25,015 bases of DNA, taken from positions 1 through 25,015 of the IMG/VR virus record IMGVR_UViG_3300005253_000214; one strand, given 5' to 3'. This DNA comes from a virus. The notes below the pieces were generated by a model that was not told the DNA's origin, made no database searches, and saw nothing but the letters and a program-made list of their open reading frames with translations. Positions 19,301 through 25,015 of the stretch are shown here, in pieces (position 1 is the first letter of the stretch; each line of letters starts with the position of its first letter). Position numbers and translations under genes: made by a program.

Positions 19301-20430
19301 GACTATGGTATACTATTGGAGAATTACATAAGGAGGGAAAAATAACTGGAGCAGGGCCTAGGAATTGGGAGGAAGTTGAGGCATGGAAAGCTGCCGGATG
19401 GCAACAGAATTCTGAACTAGTTTGGGGTGTATGGGTTGATACGTCTCGTGCTGACCCAGCGGGTAGGTCTATAAATTTAATTGCTACCGTGTTTGATTAT
19501 ATGGCCTTAAATCCACTAGAGCAGGCAGATTCAATGATGGGGTGGATTGGTACAGGATTGTTATACACAGCAGATAATATAATAGATGAATCTTATTTGT
19601 CTACTGTGACGGATTTCATAGCTGCTATACAATCAAAGGAAACCAGTCGTACTAGATCAATATCAGCTAGTACTATAAATTCAGTGTTAGTACCAAATTT
19701 ACTACGTGACATTCGTCGTCCAACCGATGAAGTAATACGTAGTTCAGCTAGTGTTAATGCACTTGACCAAGTAATTAAGCAAATGAAAAATGCTACTCCT
19801 TGGGTGTCCGATACAATTGCTCCTAACCGTGATTGGAAAGGGGACCCTAAGCATTATTATGGTAATGCTTATGTTAGAGGATTAGTGCCTTTTAATATGA
19901 GAGACCCCGATGATGCTGACCCAGCTAGTATGGCAATAGCCTATGCCCGTATTGGTCCAAGTATGCCGGATAAGAGAATTGCAATGCCCGGTGGTGCTGG
20001 CAATTTTATCGATCTCTTTGCTATGGATAATGGTGATGGTTTTGTGTACGATAAGTATGTAGAATTTGTTGGTAAAGCTAGGCACGAAGCTGTGAATATT
20101 GCAATGAATGATTCTCGTTGGCAAAAACTTGTAGATACAAATAATATTGGCCCAGGATCAGATGGTGATACAATTCTTCGAGAAGCTTTAGCGATAGGCA
20201 GTCAACTTGGTCGGACAAGAATGCTTGAATTTTTGATTGACCATCATGGTAAAAATAGCCTATTTAAACGCCAGAATGGGGATACGGTCATGATTCACCA
20301 TACATTTAGTGTAGATCAATATGCAGAGACACTATTGGCTGTACGTCAAGAAAATATTCCAGTTCCTGATGAATTACCACAATATGATCTTCGTGAAAGA
20401 AGGGAAGGTCCGGAGTTCTTTAAGCCATGA
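16321..20430 (+). CDS. Large internal virion (ejection) protein (gp16-like position)
   Basis: At 1369 residues it is the largest product here and close in size to T7 gp16 (1318 aa). Residues 61-108 form an acidic Pro/Glu/Asp/Gly linker, encoded by GC-rich DNA. Two Gly/Ala-rich hydrophobic regions follow (about 219-280 and 301-323, AIGTAIGSGAGLLLAGGGGA) that could insert in the inner membrane. The rest is helical, with SSWRTHFYNFSGNSASGVYH near residues 722-741, a pattern seen in large phage internal proteins. T7 gp16 has an N-terminal lytic transglycosylase; I see no such catalytic motif here, so peptidoglycan opening may rest on another virion protein. ATG 16321 lies 2 bases after the previous stop. 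Confidence 0.8.
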   Translation: MSALDDLFKEAEDTEKKDLQAAGLDDQYSLWRESMPNERVPNDVVLDAFLWGNDMESAAQDGRLSVSTGGAESVLGVDIPTPDPEGEETPSETPGDISKGDADGPDELKIVEGMWQPPKEAQAENYIEPTTKEIIKTPEWAGDAEIFYKFMGEPELPDYYENVSEWAKGQLSGFNWNLLVTFAISGKIMSSNDPKTALAFLNLMNMYDHSDGGWAEFGSGLVGMATDPSTYFGLAVGGLAAKGAAKAAAKTGLKRMIQGALVGGSAGIAEGGAIGGGFTLARQKIEKEAGAREEVNYGQVAIGTAIGSGAGLLLAGGGGALVGRYADKFAAATEKAMADSLGGKVRTIADLSEEQLLETLQAMQRAAGRAGVRDDAAEMALKILEGKDVPRNKNGSIDIDAVIEKIISTEIPEIKTADVVEFPGSKVPLTESQKLARRIIEMDELQAGGIVTKTVSRPGSIITTNQGKGRYELVGRTKNGWYRAIHKRTGEEINIRRKEFDVVEVSPKPEFAGPMSLDPFGETAAKVMAMAEDISSSKLKEVNITHREQLAIVDDLKKLGVDITQKKLATHWTAAEMLFLRNTYDAQANGIADMARILSSEMSLGSRLVDKDLARFNQAHAQFVATRDLFFGVSGNAARQLNILRSRPTGEVYQFSQSLLDSINMQGGRTNTERAIKLMAEFVRRGDVGESTTKNISKVSNTIWGTQWSAAVLNARYNMMLSSWRTHFYNFSGNSASGVYHHLMVTPFAGAINNLTYASRLAFTKIPGVPQKYLPDPAERFTTAIWGIELKAHLSSAMDSLTLAKEIAMGRDIGEGKVWNELGLRYNVINVPNSAFAKLGTTPVRLLEAGDAFFKNQYYNSKMHGSAARKARYEEIHAGEDFQKRFEWWLENPDATMEKEAREFAAKMTYTNDPNIYGGIFATLAKGMQTMQSKSLAFNALVPFVRTPANLLSFSMEMTGMNILTSPSTTYRAIMGNNPLERQEALARITVAVGLWYTIGELHKEGKITGAGPRNWEEVEAWKAAGWQQNSELVWGVWVDTSRADPAGRSINLIATVFDYMALNPLEQADSMMGWIGTGLLYTADNIIDESYLSTVTDFIAAIQSKETSRTRSISASTINSVLVPNLLRDIRRPTDEVIRSSASVNALDQVIKQMKNATPWVSDTIAPNRDWKGDPKHYYGNAYVRGLVPFNMRDPDDADPASMAIAYARIGPSMPDKRIAMPGGAGNFIDLFAMDNGDGFVYDKYVEFVGKARHEAVNIAMNDSRWQKLVDTNNIGPGSDGDTILREALAIGSQLGRTRMLEFLIDHHGKNSLFKRQNGDTVMIHHTFSVDQYAETLLAVRQENIPVPDELPQYDLRERREGPEFFKP
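16501..16644. other. GC-rich patch encoding an acidic linker
   Basis: Within the AT-rich ejection gene this 144-bp stretch turns abruptly GC-rich (cgggcggggcggagagcg). It encodes residues 61-108, a low-complexity acidic linker (PDPEGEETPSETPGD). The frame is kept. It may be an in-frame insertion of other origin or a locally expanded linker. Confidence 0.7.
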
Positions 20431-22316
20431 CAATTCAAAATGTAACACCTTTTGTTGATTATGTGGGTAATGGTATAGTAACATCATTTAGCTTTAATTT
20501 TAGAGCGGATGATGTTACCTGGATCAATGTTAGTTTTACCGACAATTTTGACGGAATTAGTCTAAATACCGATCAGGACAATAATCCAGGCGGCTCAGCA
20601 GAATATAGTGCTGCTCCTCCTATCGGTACTGCAATTCGAATTGAACGAAATACACCAATTACCCAATTAATGGATTATACAAGATATGGTCCATTTGATT
20701 CTATGTCCCATGAGAATAATCTTGATAAATTAACAATGGAAATGCAGGAAGAGATAAATACTCGTGTGCAAGCTGATCAAGACATACAAGCAGGTATATT
20801 AGTTTTTCCAATATCTAGTAATGATATATCTTATGATATAACTGCTGCCGAAATTGATGCGCTCGTCACGCCTAGTGCTTTCAGGTATGCGCCGTATATA
20901 GGTCGTCGATACTCCACTAAGGCTGATTGGGAAAGCATCACGATAAACTTGTACGTGGCGACTACCGGCAGCGATAGTAATGATGGAGAGACCGTAGGGG
21001 CGCCCTTCGCCACCCTGCAAAAAGCGTTAGATACGATTGCAATGTTCAGCAACGCGCTCCCCGGAAAATGGCAAATCAACTGTGCTGCCGGAACATACAG
21101 CACCGCAGCAAACTCCGTATCCGATTGGCCGCTAGGGTTACTAACGAATAAACTTGTAGACATCGTTGGGCCGGATGTAAGCGGTCATCCAAACGTACCG
21201 ACCGCAATCTTCGATGGCACAAACTCATCGACTACCGGGTTCAGATGTTCCACTGGCGCAAAAGTAAAGTTAAAAGATTTGAAGTTTCAGAATTACACGA
21301 CAGCTAACGCTATTAGTGGTTCGGGTGTATGCACACTGGTTCTTGACAACGTACATACTGATGACGCAGATCACGGAGTAATTGCTACTACACAATGCAG
21401 ATTGTACGTTAATGGCGGGCTGTTTAATCTTGTAACACCCAACACCGCCTGTATTGCTTCGGAGTTCTTTAGCGTACACCACATAGGTTATTCCTTTAAC
21501 GAAACCACAGGAACCCCAACAGCGGGAACCGATCCAACATTAACCGGCGACGGTACGGGGATCGGAATGCTAGTCAAAGAATTTGCAAGTGGACACGTTG
21601 GTGCAGTTCTGAATAACTTTGCAACTGGCGCTGACATCAGCATCAACTCCAGAATACATTTTGATTCTGGCACAGACATTAAAAATAATGGTATAGGAGT
21701 AAAGGCCACCCACCAGTCAATGTTTATAGATTCCGGCATTACATGGAACACTGGGGGTGGAGACGCTAATACCAACAATGTGATGTTGCGTAACTTCTCT
21801 AGTCAGGCAAATGACGGCACTGCTGTTACTCCGAGAATGACAAAAAAAGAGTTGTTACTTTCTCAACATACCGGGACGACAGGCGAAACATTTTTACAGT
21901 CATTCACACTAAGGGTCGGAGAGTGGATGGGGTCTCGCAACAGTATTTACGAGGGACGTATTCTTCGGGTAAAGATGTATGGCAGCACCACAGGCACGGC
22001 AGGAACAAAAACGATCAGGTGGAGGATAAGCACGTCCGCAACAGGCGTGGCTGGAACCGTCGTCGGGATTGCTGCGATTGCGGCATCGCCCGCAGGAAAC
22101 TTTGTACATGAATTTGAATTGCACGTAAATGGTGCGTCCGCTCAGCGCACCCAAAGCAGCACCATTATAGATGGCGGCGCTATTCTTGTCGGTGGGTCTA
22201 CTCCATCAGTAGATATGAGTGTCGCGGCGGAACAATACATTAACCTGACTCTACAATTAGCGAACGGTGCTGACGCCGTTAATATAAATGCGCTGAGTTA
22301 CGAGGTTATTGGGTAA
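20427..22316 (+). CDS. Tailspike / tail fibre with T7 gp17-type anchor
   Basis: The 629-residue product begins with a T7 tail-fibre anchor domain (about 1-125: TPFVDYVGNGIVTSFSFNF, 7-25; IRIERNTPITQLMDY, 70-84). After a short linker (126-175) comes YVATTGSDSNDG (176-187), the usual entry to a right-handed beta-helix of the pectate-lyase type (to about 460), then a beta-rich C-terminal domain (about 470-629), probably trimerising or glycan binding. It would attach to the tail and bind or cut surface polysaccharide; no catalytic residues can be named. ATG 20427 overlaps the preceding stop. From about 20860 the DNA becomes richer in G and C, which suggests that the receptor part was exchanged. 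Confidence 0.9.
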   Translation: MTIQNVTPFVDYVGNGIVTSFSFNFRADDVTWINVSFTDNFDGISLNTDQDNNPGGSAEYSAAPPIGTAIRIERNTPITQLMDYTRYGPFDSMSHENNLDKLTMEMQEEINTRVQADQDIQAGILVFPISSNDISYDITAAEIDALVTPSAFRYAPYIGRRYSTKADWESITINLYVATTGSDSNDGETVGAPFATLQKALDTIAMFSNALPGKWQINCAAGTYSTAANSVSDWPLGLLTNKLVDIVGPDVSGHPNVPTAIFDGTNSSTTGFRCSTGAKVKLKDLKFQNYTTANAISGSGVCTLVLDNVHTDDADHGVIATTQCRLYVNGGLFNLVTPNTACIASEFFSVHHIGYSFNETTGTPTAGTDPTLTGDGTGIGMLVKEFASGHVGAVLNNFATGADISINSRIHFDSGTDIKNNGIGVKATHQSMFIDSGITWNTGGGDANTNNVMLRNFSSQANDGTAVTPRMTKKELLLSQHTGTTGETFLQSFTLRVGEWMGSRNSIYEGRILRVKMYGSTTGTAGTKTIRWRISTSATGVAGTVVGIAAIAASPAGNFVHEFELHVNGASAQRTQSSTIIDGGAILVGGSTPSVDMSVAAEQYINLTLQLANGADAVNINALSYEVIG

Positions 22317-22556
22317 ATACCTAGCTTCGGAACAGCCAATGAAACGATTACTACTTGAAAGACAACCCTCCGGCGTTAAAGAGACGCAAGGGTTTATATC
22401 GTTTTCCAGTGTTGTGCTTGCGTTAAAGGGGACAGAATGAAACTTGGTGAAAAACAAGATTTGAAATTGCATCATTTGATACAGTACCAGCCCACGTTAA
22501 AACATACGGTGGTGCTCGTATTACTTTAGTGTATAATCGAACATAAAGGAAATAAC
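22317..22556 (+). pseudogene. Region of gene remnants between tailspike and lysis genes
   Basis: No full gene lies here, but three pieces look like parts of genes. First, an ORF of 33 codons (22339-22440) starts MKRLLLERQPSG, like the beginning of a longer protein. Second, an ORF of 30 codons (22437-22529) starts MKLGEKQDL, closely like the endolysin start MRLGEKQEL at 22922, with a good AAGGGGA site, then loses similarity. Third, in another frame, EIASFDTVPAHV and GGARITLVYNRT end at a TAA (22544-22546), like the C-terminus of a structural protein. The order looks like the result of recombination between related phages. Translation of the short ORFs cannot be excluded. Confidence 0.55.
22364..22394 (+). 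terminator. Weak terminator-like hairpin after the tailspike
   Basis: AACCCT (22364-22369) pairs with AGGGTT (22389-22394), and inside it GCGT (22373-22376) pairs with ACGC (22384-22387). The following sequence (ttatatcgtttt) is only partly T-rich. It may slow or end transcription after the tailspike, but the case is weak. Confidence 0.3.
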
Positions 22557-22925
22557 ATGACAATTGATACTAAGCTAACAAAGGAACATGGGTATCGTAT
22601 GTCTTTAACGGTATTAATATCATATTTACCATTAATACCGGTATTTTGGTTATTAGTTAAACCTGTTTTAGTAACCGCTGTTAGTGAAGCTGTGGCCGCT
22701 GATATCCAAAATGAAGTTAAAGCTCAAGTAGCCCCACTCAATCAAGCCTTTATAGCTCTAACTAAGCAAAAGATAAGTTCGCTTCGTAAAGAAATCGCCA
22801 GAGAAGAATTTCGTAAAACTAATAATAGTAATTGGACTGTTGAGGATGCTGAGGATTTAGTTGAACTTCGTGAGGATTTAGAAGCTCAACGAGAAGCTTT
22901 AGCTGCGCTAAGGGGAACGGGATGA
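22557..22925 (+). CDS. Membrane-anchored coiled-coil protein, possible i-spanin
   Basis: The 122-residue product has one hydrophobic segment (about 16-40, LTVLISYLPLIPVFWLLV), then a long charged helix with coiled-coil character (about 47-120). An inner-membrane anchor with a periplasmic coiled coil, next to an endolysin and a holin, is the plan of Rz-type i-spanins, which fuse inner and outer membrane at lysis. No Rz1-like lipoprotein frame was identified inside or beside it, so the call is tentative; a holin regulator or antiholin is an alternative. ATG 22557 follows AAAGGAAA. Its stop overlaps the endolysin ATG (ATGA). Confidence 0.6.
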   Translation: MTIDTKLTKEHGYRMSLTVLISYLPLIPVFWLLVKPVLVTAVSEAVAADIQNEVKAQVAPLNQAFIALTKQKISSLRKEIAREEFRKTNNSNWTVEDAEDLVELREDLEAQREALAALRGTG

Positions 22926-23263
22926 GATTAGGTGAAAAACAAGAATTATTTGCTCAATTATACGCTGAGCATATAATCTGGTTACATACTTGTGGCTACG
23001 AAGTCCGATTAGGTGATGTATTTGCCCGAGAAGGGCATAGGGAAGGTAGTAATCACTATATTAAGCTCGCTGGGGATATTAATCTATTTAAAAATGGTGA
23101 ATATATAACCACAACGATGGGTCACCGTGAATCAGGTGAGAAATGGGAATCTCGCCATGAACTTTGCCGATGGGGCGGTAATTGGGATAAAGACGATCAC
23201 CCAGGGGAACCGGGTGAAGACGACGGAAATCATTATTCACTACTTCATAACGGGAGAATGTAA
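22922..23263 (+). CDS. Endolysin, M15 (VanY/L-Ala-D-Glu type) peptidase
   Basis: The 113-residue product shows M15 zinc-peptidase motifs: SNHYIKLAGDINLF (43-56), giving His45 and Asp52 as zinc ligands, and CRWGGNW (82-88) followed by DGNH (101-104), giving the third ligand His104 and the acidic residue Asp101. Relatives cut the peptide stems of peptidoglycan. No signal peptide is present, so export depends on the holin. The usual short D..HF ending is stretched here by an acidic Asp/Gly/Pro loop (89-102). The ATG overlaps the preceding stop, and its last base overlaps no further than the TAATG of the holin gene. Confidence 0.88.
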   Translation: MRLGEKQELFAQLYAEHIIWLHTCGYEVRLGDVFAREGHREGSNHYIKLAGDINLFKNGEYITTTMGHRESGEKWESRHELCRWGGNWDKDDHPGEPGEDDGNHYSLLHNGRM

Positions 23264-23664
23264 TGAGTTTTCTAAAAAATATGTTTGGTACGGGAGAAGC
23301 AGCGGTTAGCGGGGTTGTTGCTATTGGGCATGTACTCGATGGTTTATTTACTTCTAAAGATGAAAAATTAACACATGAAGAAGTAAGAATTCGATTAGCT
23401 CAACAGCCAGATTTAGCTCAAATAGAGCTTAACAAGATAGAAGCTTCAAGTAGGTTTTGGTTCGCGGCCAATTGGAGACCGTTTATGGGTTGGGTTGGGG
23501 GTCTAGGATTAGCTAACATGTTCTTAATCAATCCATGGATTCAATGGATTACTGATAAAGCTGGTCCAAACTTACCTGAGGACATAATTATGGAACTTAT
23601 CTATGCTCTCCTTGGCCTTGGTACACTTCGTACTATTGAAAAGATTCAAGGTAGGAGTAAATAA
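23263..23664 (+). CDS. Three-TM holin (GTA_holin_3TM type)
   Basis: The 133-residue product has three hydrophobic segments (about 12-29, 72-95 and 107-123) and the pattern typical of the GTA_holin_3TM family: ASSRFWFAANWRPFMGW (61-77) and YALLGLGTLRTIEK (114-127). A charged cytosolic region lies between the first two segments (EVRIRLAQQPDL). It would form holes in the inner membrane that release the M15 endolysin. ATG 23263 overlaps the endolysin stop, and its stop overlaps the next ATG. Confidence 0.87.
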   Translation: MSFLKNMFGTGEAAVSGVVAIGHVLDGLFTSKDEKLTHEEVRIRLAQQPDLAQIELNKIEASSRFWFAANWRPFMGWVGGLGLANMFLINPWIQWITDKAGPNLPEDIIMELIYALLGLGTLRTIEKIQGRSK

Positions 23665-23819
23665 TGCCATTTAAATCAGCAAAGCAAAGACGGGCTATGT
23701 ATGCAGCAGCTTCTGGAAGGGGCAAGATAGGTATTTCTAAAAAAGCTGCTAAGAAATTTATTAAACATTCGAAGCCGAAAAAGCGTCGCACATTAGGTCG
23801 TAACAGAAAGCGCCGATAG
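23664..23819 (+). CDS. Small basic phage protein (MPFKS..QRR type, 51 aa)
   Basis: ATG 23664 overlaps the holin stop (TAATG). The 51 residues begin MPFKSAKQRRAMYAAAS, a start shared by many tiny phage proteins of unknown role, then GISKKAAKKFIKHS, and end in a Lys/Arg-rich tail (PKKRRTLGRNRKRR). It probably binds nucleic acid or a negatively charged partner. It is the last gene of the rightward block. The overlap with the holin gene and the familiar N-terminus support it as real. Confidence 0.82.
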   Translation: MPFKSAKQRRAMYAAASGRGKIGISKKAAKKFIKHSKPKKRRTLGRNRKRR

Positions 23820-24072
23820 TTACAAGATGATAATTATTACCTACCGCTGCCCCGGTGTAATAAGTCCATATAACCTGATGAACACGAACCATGGCAATGC
23901 ATGGTTCATATTTTATCATTTTATCATGGACCCAATCTAATTCTTCCGTAGATGTGATGGCAATATCAATGAAGAGGAATCTTCTCCGGGAATGGAATCT
24001 GAATCTTGGTTCACCACTAGGTAATATTTCAGAAACTGTATTAGATTGTCTATGTCTATTTTGTCCTTCCAT
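23761..24072 (-). CDS. Possible overlapping leftward ORF (103 aa)
   Basis: ATG 24072 has AGGAG at 7 bases. The frame overlaps the nuclease gene by 136 bases and then crosses the gap between the converging blocks, ending antisense within the 51-aa gene. Beyond the nuclease stop the frame still reads like protein (ELDWVHDKMIKYEP, then VRVHQVIWTYYTGAAVGNNY). No family is recognised. It is either a short gene at the end of the leftward block or a chance frame; the strong ribosome site and sensible composition keep it open. Confidence 0.4.
   Translation of the reverse strand: MEGQNRHRQSNTVSEILPSGEPRFRFHSRRRFLFIDIAITSTEELDWVHDKMIKYEPCIAMVRVHQVIWTYYTGAAVGNNYHLVTIGAFCYDLMCDAFSASNV
23886..23907. terminator. 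Hairpin between converging blocks
   Basis: GAACCATG (23886-23893), loop GCAATG, CATGGTTC (23900-23907) form a perfect 8-bp stem, followed on the + strand by ATATTTTATCATTTTAT. It lies 66 bases after the last rightward stop and could end rightward transcription. The T-run is broken, so efficiency is doubtful, and no T-run supports the other direction. Confidence 0.45.
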
Positions 24073-24434
24073 ACCATTACTCCTGTCTCAAGCCATTCAA
24101 TAACCCTAGTTGTATGGACTAAATTTGGTACATCAGTTCCTGCAATTAGAACTATACCAATTGATTTACCTGGTAATTCAGCCTTTGCTAATACCCATGG
24201 TTGTCCACCAGCCTTTACTCGCTTTTTGAACCATGCACATTGAGCAGGCCGTAATCTAAATCCATGCCTATAGGATGAAGTGTATTTTAATTCAATCTTA
24301 TTATTATAACCATTAATACAATACTCAACGTCCGGGGTACCTACCGCTGTTTCATGGCTCTCAATTCTTTCGAAATGTCCAAACTTTTTGAGTTTAGGGT
24401 ATAAGTAATTCCACATTCGTTGTTCACCAGTCAT
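23937..24434 (-). CDS. VRR-NUC-like PD-(D/E)XK nuclease
   Basis: The 165-residue product has the core of small phage VRR-NUC or Holliday-junction-resolvase-like nucleases: an N-terminal helix (TGEQRMWNYLYPKLKKF) and Glu28 in ESHETAVGTPDVEY (25-38), with Asp35 as a metal ligand. IELKY (47-51) supplies Glu48 and Lys50, and RLRPAQCAWF (60-69) holds the conserved RPxQ that follows the core in this group. Such enzymes cut branched DNA during recombination or packaging. The last 20 residues are Ser-rich and unlike the core. Its ATG at 24434 overlaps the stop of the 85-aa gene (ATGA). Confidence 0.83.
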   Translation of the reverse strand: MTGEQRMWNYLYPKLKKFGHFERIESHETAVGTPDVEYCINGYNNKIELKYTSSYRHGFRLRPAQCAWFKKRVKAGGQPWVLAKAELPGKSIGIVLIAGTDVPNLVHTTRVIEWLETGVMVWKDKIDIDNLIQFLKYYLVVNQDSDSIPGEDSSSLILPSHLRKN

Positions 24435-24688
24435 AAATCTATCCCCCTAAATGCTTCATTAGTACGATTACGCCATTCCTCCTTTGGGAATGTACGTGCA
24501 TATAAAAATGCCGTTAATTCTCCAAGTCCAAATCCACCACGACAACCATCTTCAATCATTGCTTGTTGTGGGCTATAAATATAGCAATAAACTTCATAAG
24601 CGGCCATGTACACAACTTTGGGCACTGATGCTTGTTCATTATAACGTTTATTACTACGTTGTATTGGCCATATTTTCGGTTCACTCAT
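24431..24688 (-). CDS. Hypothetical protein (85 aa)
   Basis: ATG 24688 follows GGGGAG at about 8 bases and overlaps the stop of the phosphohydrolase gene (ATGA). The product has a middle hydrophobic stretch (VVYMAAYEVYCYIYSPQQAM, 25-44) and an ending that looks conserved (CRGGFGLGELTAFLYAR, 49-65, then FPKEEW). The pattern resembles unnamed small proteins of other phages, but I know no function. Its place between nucleotide and DNA enzymes points to the early/metabolic set. Confidence 0.75.
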   Translation of the reverse strand: MSEPKIWPIQRSNKRYNEQASVPKVVYMAAYEVYCYIYSPQQAMIEDGCRGGFGLGELTAFLYARTFPKEEWRNRTNEAFRGIDL

Positions 24689-25015
24689 ATTGTATACTCC
24701 CCATTTTCTAACTGGTCCATTACATCTGAAGCAGCCTCTTTAATATTATCAGGTATATCTGGATTACGTACCATAGCACTAAAATTTCTAAGCATAATAT
24801 GATATACCTCTATTGCATGTTGCCCTAACTTATGATCACGGAGCCAATGGATATCGGCTATTTTATCTGCTATATGGACAATTAAAGCTTCATCTGCCCC
24901 AAGAACCCTGCCCGTAATTTTGTGATACAGGTCATTAAGCTCCCACCCATTTGCTCTTGCACGTGCCTTGGTCGGGGTAGGGAAATCTCCAACTATAACC
25001 TCATCAAGGTCATGT
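24685..25015 (-). CDS. HD-domain phosphohydrolase, YfbR-like (partial, N-terminus missing)
   Basis: The frame enters from the right edge and ends at TGA (24685-24687), overlapping the next ATG. The 109 visible residues begin exactly at the catalytic HD and continue as HDLDEVIVGDFPTPTK (1-16), which matches the HD..E...GD.PTP.K block of E. coli YfbR (5'-deoxynucleotidase). ADKIADIHWL (49-58) supplies the later metal-binding Asp (Asp50). The first metal His and the substrate pocket residues lie beyond the window. Family members remove phosphate from deoxynucleotides; the relative DatZ destroys dATP in phages that use 2-aminoadenine. Which substrate applies here cannot be told. Confidence 0.82.
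   Translation of the reverse strand, partial: HDLDEVIVGDFPTPTKARARANGWELNDLYHKITGRVLGADEALIVHIADKIADIHWLRDHKLGQHAIEVYHIMLRNFSAMVRNPDIPDNIKEAASDVMDQLENGEYTI

Follow-up and report, generated by a model that had tools for sequence, protein, structure and literature searches.

Introduction

Receptor-binding modules determine which bacteria a phage infects, and their exchange is known. In lytic phages, exchange involving the tailspike anchor and the receptor-binding domain has been described, and the accessible part of that report proposes conserved motifs at the end of the anchor and in the downstream terminator as the swap sites (PMC10408124). Whether the joints of mosaic phage genomes stem from illegitimate or from relaxed homologous recombination is debated, as the accessible part of another report sets out (PMC3945230).

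Here, we analyze a gap of this sort in a stretch of 25,015 bases (the window) from the viral record IMGVR_UViG_3300005253_000214, which carries podovirus genes. The gap, 22317-22556, lies between a tailspike gene (20427-22316, plus strand) and the lysis cassette. We consider it probable, at about 0.72, that a tailspike replacement left it as its 3' joint, where a piece of a lysis gene boundary now adjoins what remains of the C-terminus of a displaced native gene.

Results

Gene context

The portal protein of the window matches Pfam Head-tail_con (1.3e-104), and a protein of 1369 residues matches a PHROG named internal virion protein. Alignment of the portal gave 106 viral relatives. We retained 80, and identity is 76-100% in the first 36 of these; by portal, the genus relatives stand at 77%. 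One portal, that of L024, a contig from metagenome 3300005663, is identical over all 503 matched residues, and judging from this sequence the two contigs possibly belong to the same population.

Downstream of the gap, the lysis cassette opens with a native membrane protein gene (22557-22925, plus strand), which we call spanin-like because of its position and a single N-terminal hydrophobic stretch; relatives of its product occur in 42 viral loci, with flanking genes that differ between loci. It is followed by a native, M15-peptidase-like endolysin gene (22922-23263, plus strand; PHROG endolysin, 2e-4; Pfam Peptidase_M15_4 at E 0.0016, under the curated cut-off) and by the holin gene (23263-23664), 3' of which a Lys/Arg-rich protein of 51 residues (23664-23819) falls into PHROG 16759, of unknown function. 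In 10 of 11 viral loci, the endolysin has relatives of 72-85% identity that extend over its full length, and endolysins resembling it were found in 2 of 50 portal-bearing records. Across L001-L010, the 113-residue endolysin has very different gene neighborhoods, adjoining tail, structural or other genes, as if the gene had moved on its own.

Tailspike anchor and body

The tailspike gene begins with an N-terminal anchor and linker (20427-20876, plus strand) that are native by several measures. Residues 1-120 are 48-49% identical to the anchors of two genus relatives, residues 1-108 match a PHROG tail protein (3.4e-16), and both the codon-usage score, which was trained on 14 genes of the window, and GC3 (0.25-0.61 and 0.10-0.37, respectively) are as in the other genes of the phage. 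Between 20787-20876 and 20877-20966, score and GC3 change from 0.61 and 0.17 to 0.04 and 0.57, and the composition stays foreign up to the stop codon. The foreign composition is thus confined exactly between the anchor and the gap, and the body of the tailspike, the receptor-binding part (20877-22316, plus strand), is foreign. The preliminary description of this DNA had read the gap as the joint left by replacement of a tailspike module, and a foreign body on a native anchor, with the break at 20877, bears this out.

The body has one relative of 44% identity in viral contigs (L016), with a different N-terminus and different neighbors, and weak relatives of 24-32% identity among the tailspike or tail genes of several phages. 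No relative of the body was found in genome contigs, and in phages none that covers 80% of the query; the lack of an identifiable donor lineage bears on the naming of the donor and not on whether a swap occurred. The linker region 20751-20981 was searched without a real match. An AlphaFold model of the tailspike, built from two sequences, has a mean pLDDT of 43.8, too weak for firm claims about the fold; its top Foldseek match (E 5.2e-5, TM just 0.17) is to a tail fibre of Agrobacterium phage 7-7-1 and is taken only as agreement of the model with a phage tail spike.

As the record is a virus contig and possibly a fragment, one may think of an assembly chimera of two phages from one metagenome. 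The native composition on both sides of the foreign tailspike speaks against this, since it would take two false joins, and each of them at a very short stretch of shared sequence; we regard such an artifact as very improbable.

A second copy of the spanin-like/endolysin boundary

The segment 22419-22462 aligns without gaps, over 44 nt and at 80% identity, with 22904-22947, the spanin-like/endolysin gene boundary. The local alignment score is 48, a value that none of 1842 comparisons between randomly drawn segments of the window, equal in size, reached (best score 31). The similarity is therefore beyond chance, and it lies in the correct frame and comes with a ribosome site. The end of the upstream frame is repeated as well (ALKGTE in the patch, ALRGTG in the copy at 22904, each before a stop), in both copies the upstream stop overlaps the next start as ATGA, and the starts read MKLGEKQ in the patch and MRLGEKQ in the endolysin at 22922. 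We thus describe 22419-22459 (plus strand) as a second, diverged copy of the boundary, comprising ALKGTE and stop, the ribosome site AAGGGG and MKLGEKQ; ALKGTE and MKLGEKQ have codon scores of 0.43 and 0.65. An open reading frame of 30 codons at 22437 (22437-22529, plus strand), with a good ribosome site and a start MKLGEKQDL that matches MRLGEKQEL at 22922, had been pointed out before and is confirmed; the duplication had been limited to the endolysin start, and is in fact wider by the end of the upstream frame.

The two copies differ at 8 positions in 40 nt, with 3 amino-acid changes as the result. Sets of 8 random substitutions were equally conservative in 155 of 20000 cases, and in 944 of 20000 when transitions alone were allowed. 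Within the limits of so small a sample, this suggests that the copy diverged as a working gene and hence probably came from another phage.

The repeat ends after GAAAAACAAGA (22459). Each of the ten endolysin starts listed, that of the window included, continues with E after KQ. The gap has D at this place, which indicates that the copy breaks there; beyond KQ, it has no further resemblance to the endolysin. Gapped similarity to the endolysin past 22459 was set aside as probably chance in AT-rich DNA, as the coding signal shifts frame there, and the similarity of 22456-22476 to 21274-21294 in the tailspike gene (81% of 21 nt) is likewise taken as chance. Together, the composition break and the end of the repeat place the incoming segment at about 20877-22459.

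A coding frame with native codon usage behind the repeat

At about 22456-22460, the coding signal passes from frame 0, that of MKLGEKQ, to frame 2. The open reading frame at 22437 scores 0.65 over 22437-22457 and -0.23 over the 23 codons 22458-22526, and looks coding in its first 7 codons only. Frame 2 holds scores of 0.43-0.60 up to its own stop: from 22451 to 22543 it reads KTRFEIASFDTVPAHVKTYGGARITLVYNRT, beginning with KTRF and ending with GGARITLVYNRT, followed by TAA (22544-22546), which lies 10 nt before the next ATG (22557). No start codon lies near the beginning of this frame, which is not shared with its neighbors.

Over its 31 codons, the frame scores 0.478, compared with a mean of 0.447 for 180 windows in true frames, and none of 360 off-frame windows reaches its score. 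Its two parts score 0.50 and 0.47, and the value is 0.48 when genes upstream of 20430 alone are used for training. Among 345 other non-gene open frames of the window (at least 31 codons, with stop), five reach this value. Three of these are antisense, and the other two, which end near 1879 and 2777, share the strand of the frame behind the repeat. The two plus-strand frames, which have high coding scores and are outside the gene list, may be unlisted real genes. With a GC3 of 0.13, the frame behind the repeat resembles native genes and differs from the tailspike body. Native-type codon score and GC3 together make 22451-22546 (plus strand) most likely the C-terminal end of a native gene. The two coding-like pieces meet at about 22451-22460. 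The preliminary description had also seen the C-terminus of another protein here; the separate, coding-like frame stands, and its attribution to the incoming phage has to give way to a remnant of the displaced native gene.

The two pieces could be real small genes of this phage, given the good ribosome site of the one and the coding look of the other (22451-22543). However, the first loses its coding look after 7 codons, the second lacks a nearby start, and neither piece occurs in 158 fetched loci, Pfam or PHROGs; we hold this for very unlikely.

The remnant looks undecayed. When native 31-codon windows were subjected to 20% random substitution, 6.8% remained stop-free and scored as high as the remnant, compared with 47.8% of unmutated ones. 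With the remnant undecayed, the patch had probably acquired its 20% divergence before it arrived, and the simulation speaks for a joint that is young compared with that divergence. This bears on the main rival to a second phage as the source of the patch, namely that illegitimate repair placed a copy of the boundary of this very phage (22904-22944) 485 nt farther upstream, next to the remnant, where the copy diverged later. In its favor, the ALRGTG-type upstream context is found in the window only among the ten endolysin starts listed, and the pattern of the spanin-like/endolysin boundary occurs in no other viral contig searched. It would, however, have to account for a divergence of 20%, mostly synonymous or conservative, right beside a remnant without decay, and we judge it unlikely.

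The probable displaced gene

An anchor profile search covered 50 of the 80 portal records (all 36 near ones and 14 others). The anchor was matched in 19 of the 50 and, within the near set, in 10 of 36, 6 of these 10 having two anchor genes. Regions were fetched from 15 records, and eight of these plus L020 were read in detail. In six genus relatives (L020, L104, L106, L108, L109 and L110), the anchor domain is shared by two tail genes some kilobases apart; the window has one such gene.

In the relatives examined, a last tail protein of about 150-340 residues usually precedes the lysis cassette, and in L004/L020 and L107 its gene directly precedes a spanin-like gene related to that of the window. 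In the window, the end of the remnant takes the place that the end of the last tail gene has in these records. By eye, the C-termini look alike (LVYNRT, VKYIRP, LRYTRP and NVYRFT, each before the stop), but in tests the similarity of the remnant to tail protein C-termini is weak, shuffled sequences doing as well in 133 of 3000 cases for L110, 498 of 3000 for L004 and 1398 of 3000 for L107. In profile rankings, for which 13,872 sequences were given, the remnant came 264th of 10,528 and 235th of 10,951 scored. The displaced gene was thus most likely the last tail gene, an assignment that draws mainly on position.

Position also bears on the idea that a related phage already had the composite of tailspike, patch and tail gene remnant, and that it reached the window as one unit. 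Whatever phage donated the patch must indeed have had codon use like that of this phage, as the scores of ALKGTE and MKLGEKQ indicate. Nevertheless, the remnant stops 10 nt before the native cassette, as expected for the end of a resident tail gene, and no relative with such a composite was found, so that we consider this origin improbable, more so than an internal copy.

The flank between tailspike and patch

The bases 22317-22418 (plus strand) would be the 3' flank of the incoming tailspike gene and are probably non-coding, as no plus frame was clearly coding with native or with tailspike-body codon tables. These 102 nt before the patch are unlike any spanin-like gene, and a further junction at 22418 is therefore possible. 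Within the flank, a hairpin (22364-22394, plus strand) is followed by a U-rich stretch. Its 51-nt fold has -13.2 kcal/mol and a z of -2.07, a modest margin over shuffled sequences (7 of 200 equal), and the terminator scan did not list it; tentatively, it may be the terminator of the incoming tailspike gene. An Rfam match to a snoRNA (E 0.37, under the gathering score) is put down to chance.

The open reading frame with MKRLLLERQPSG (22339-22440) also begins in the flank; it had been proposed as the apparent start of a third gene. This proposal is dropped: the frame has no evident ribosome site, no search match and no clear coding signal, its first 26 codons score 0.09, and its stop overlaps the duplicated start. 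Taken whole (22339-22437), the frame scores 0.18, which 2 of 360 off-frame windows reach, and most of this comes from the ALKGTE end, which is the patch.

Searches for intact copies of the pieces

Neither an intact donor gene nor an intact version of one of the pieces turned up in the phages, viral contigs and genome contigs searched. Across 50,697 phage records, tblastn with the remnant and the MKRLL frame gave no intact copy, blastn with 22317-22556 gave short matches in four records (E 0.9 or worse), and the DNA of 20400-25015 gave nothing useful. The pieces had no match in PHROGs or Pfam, and patterns made from the remnant were not found in viral contigs or genome contigs. In the 158 fetched loci (1.05 million bases), tblastn with the pieces found none (best remnant match E 0.61); the best DNA match, with 22 of 24 nt, lies at the start of the L007 endolysin gene.

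The preliminary description had proposed nucleotide and translated searches for longer genes that contain the pieces, and had counted a lack of hits as evidence against its reading. All were negative, and as pieces so short are hard to find even where relatives exist, these misses carry little weight. It had given the same standing to relatives that keep the short frames intact under constraint, and no such relatives were found. Overall, its interpretation holds for the swap, the duplicated start and the C-terminal remnant, is unsupported for the third gene, and has to be revised for the origin of the remnant.

Discussion

Our data suggest a model in which the ancestor had, in this order, an anchor, one or more tail genes, the last tail protein gene, the spanin-like gene, the endolysin gene and the holin gene. 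It would have gained a foreign tailspike body through an upstream crossover behind the anchor, at about 20877. Beyond the stop codon of the tailspike, the incoming DNA would have extended over about 100 nt of flank, perhaps with a terminator hairpin, and on into a 41-nt lysis boundary; the source of this boundary would be a second phage whose lysis cassette is related, and not this genome. Within GAAAAACAAGA (about 22451-22460), the incoming DNA would then have been joined, over a short stretch of homology or none at all, to the 28-31 codons that end the resident gene, presumably that of the last tail protein. Such a joint may have been tolerated because the upstream fusion is in frame and because an intact lysis cassette, with its own ribosome sites, starts 10 nt past the stop of the remnant.

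In the window, the position of each junction is defined to within tens of bases, and traces of the sequences on its two sides survive at the downstream joint. For an environmental podovirus group, this constrains how such swaps take place: behind the anchor, and ahead of the lysis genes at a joint almost free of homology. One could go further and propose that the spanin-like/endolysin boundary, with its ribosome site and first codons, serves as a recombination linker, and that tailspikes travel with a stub of the lysis cassette. If true, this would couple the exchange of host recognition to that of lysis genes, but we consider it rather unlikely, slightly more so than an internal copy of the boundary.

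Within the window, the closest comparison is with the phage's own endolysin gene, which shares with the second copy the MKLGEKQ-type start, the ribosome site and the ATGA overlap; the copy stops after 7 codons. The swaps described in lytic phages, as far as the accessible part of that report goes, are alike in that a conserved N-terminal anchor is kept and the receptor-binding part is exchanged (PMC10408124). The joint in the window differs in that it retains a fragment of a lysis gene start and the C-terminal codons of the displaced gene, and in that no donor was found; that report uses neither the word “remnant” nor the word “lysis”. With the recombinants in the accessible part of PMC3945230, it shares novel joints between phage sequences of different origin and the preservation of functional genes. 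Those recombinants are, however, lambdoid phages with long, diverged homology, whereas the joint in the window has only very short shared sequence. Since such swaps are already in the literature, the window is a new example and not a new kind of event: its joint is unusually legible, which makes it a useful but unsurprising instance of tailspike exchange.
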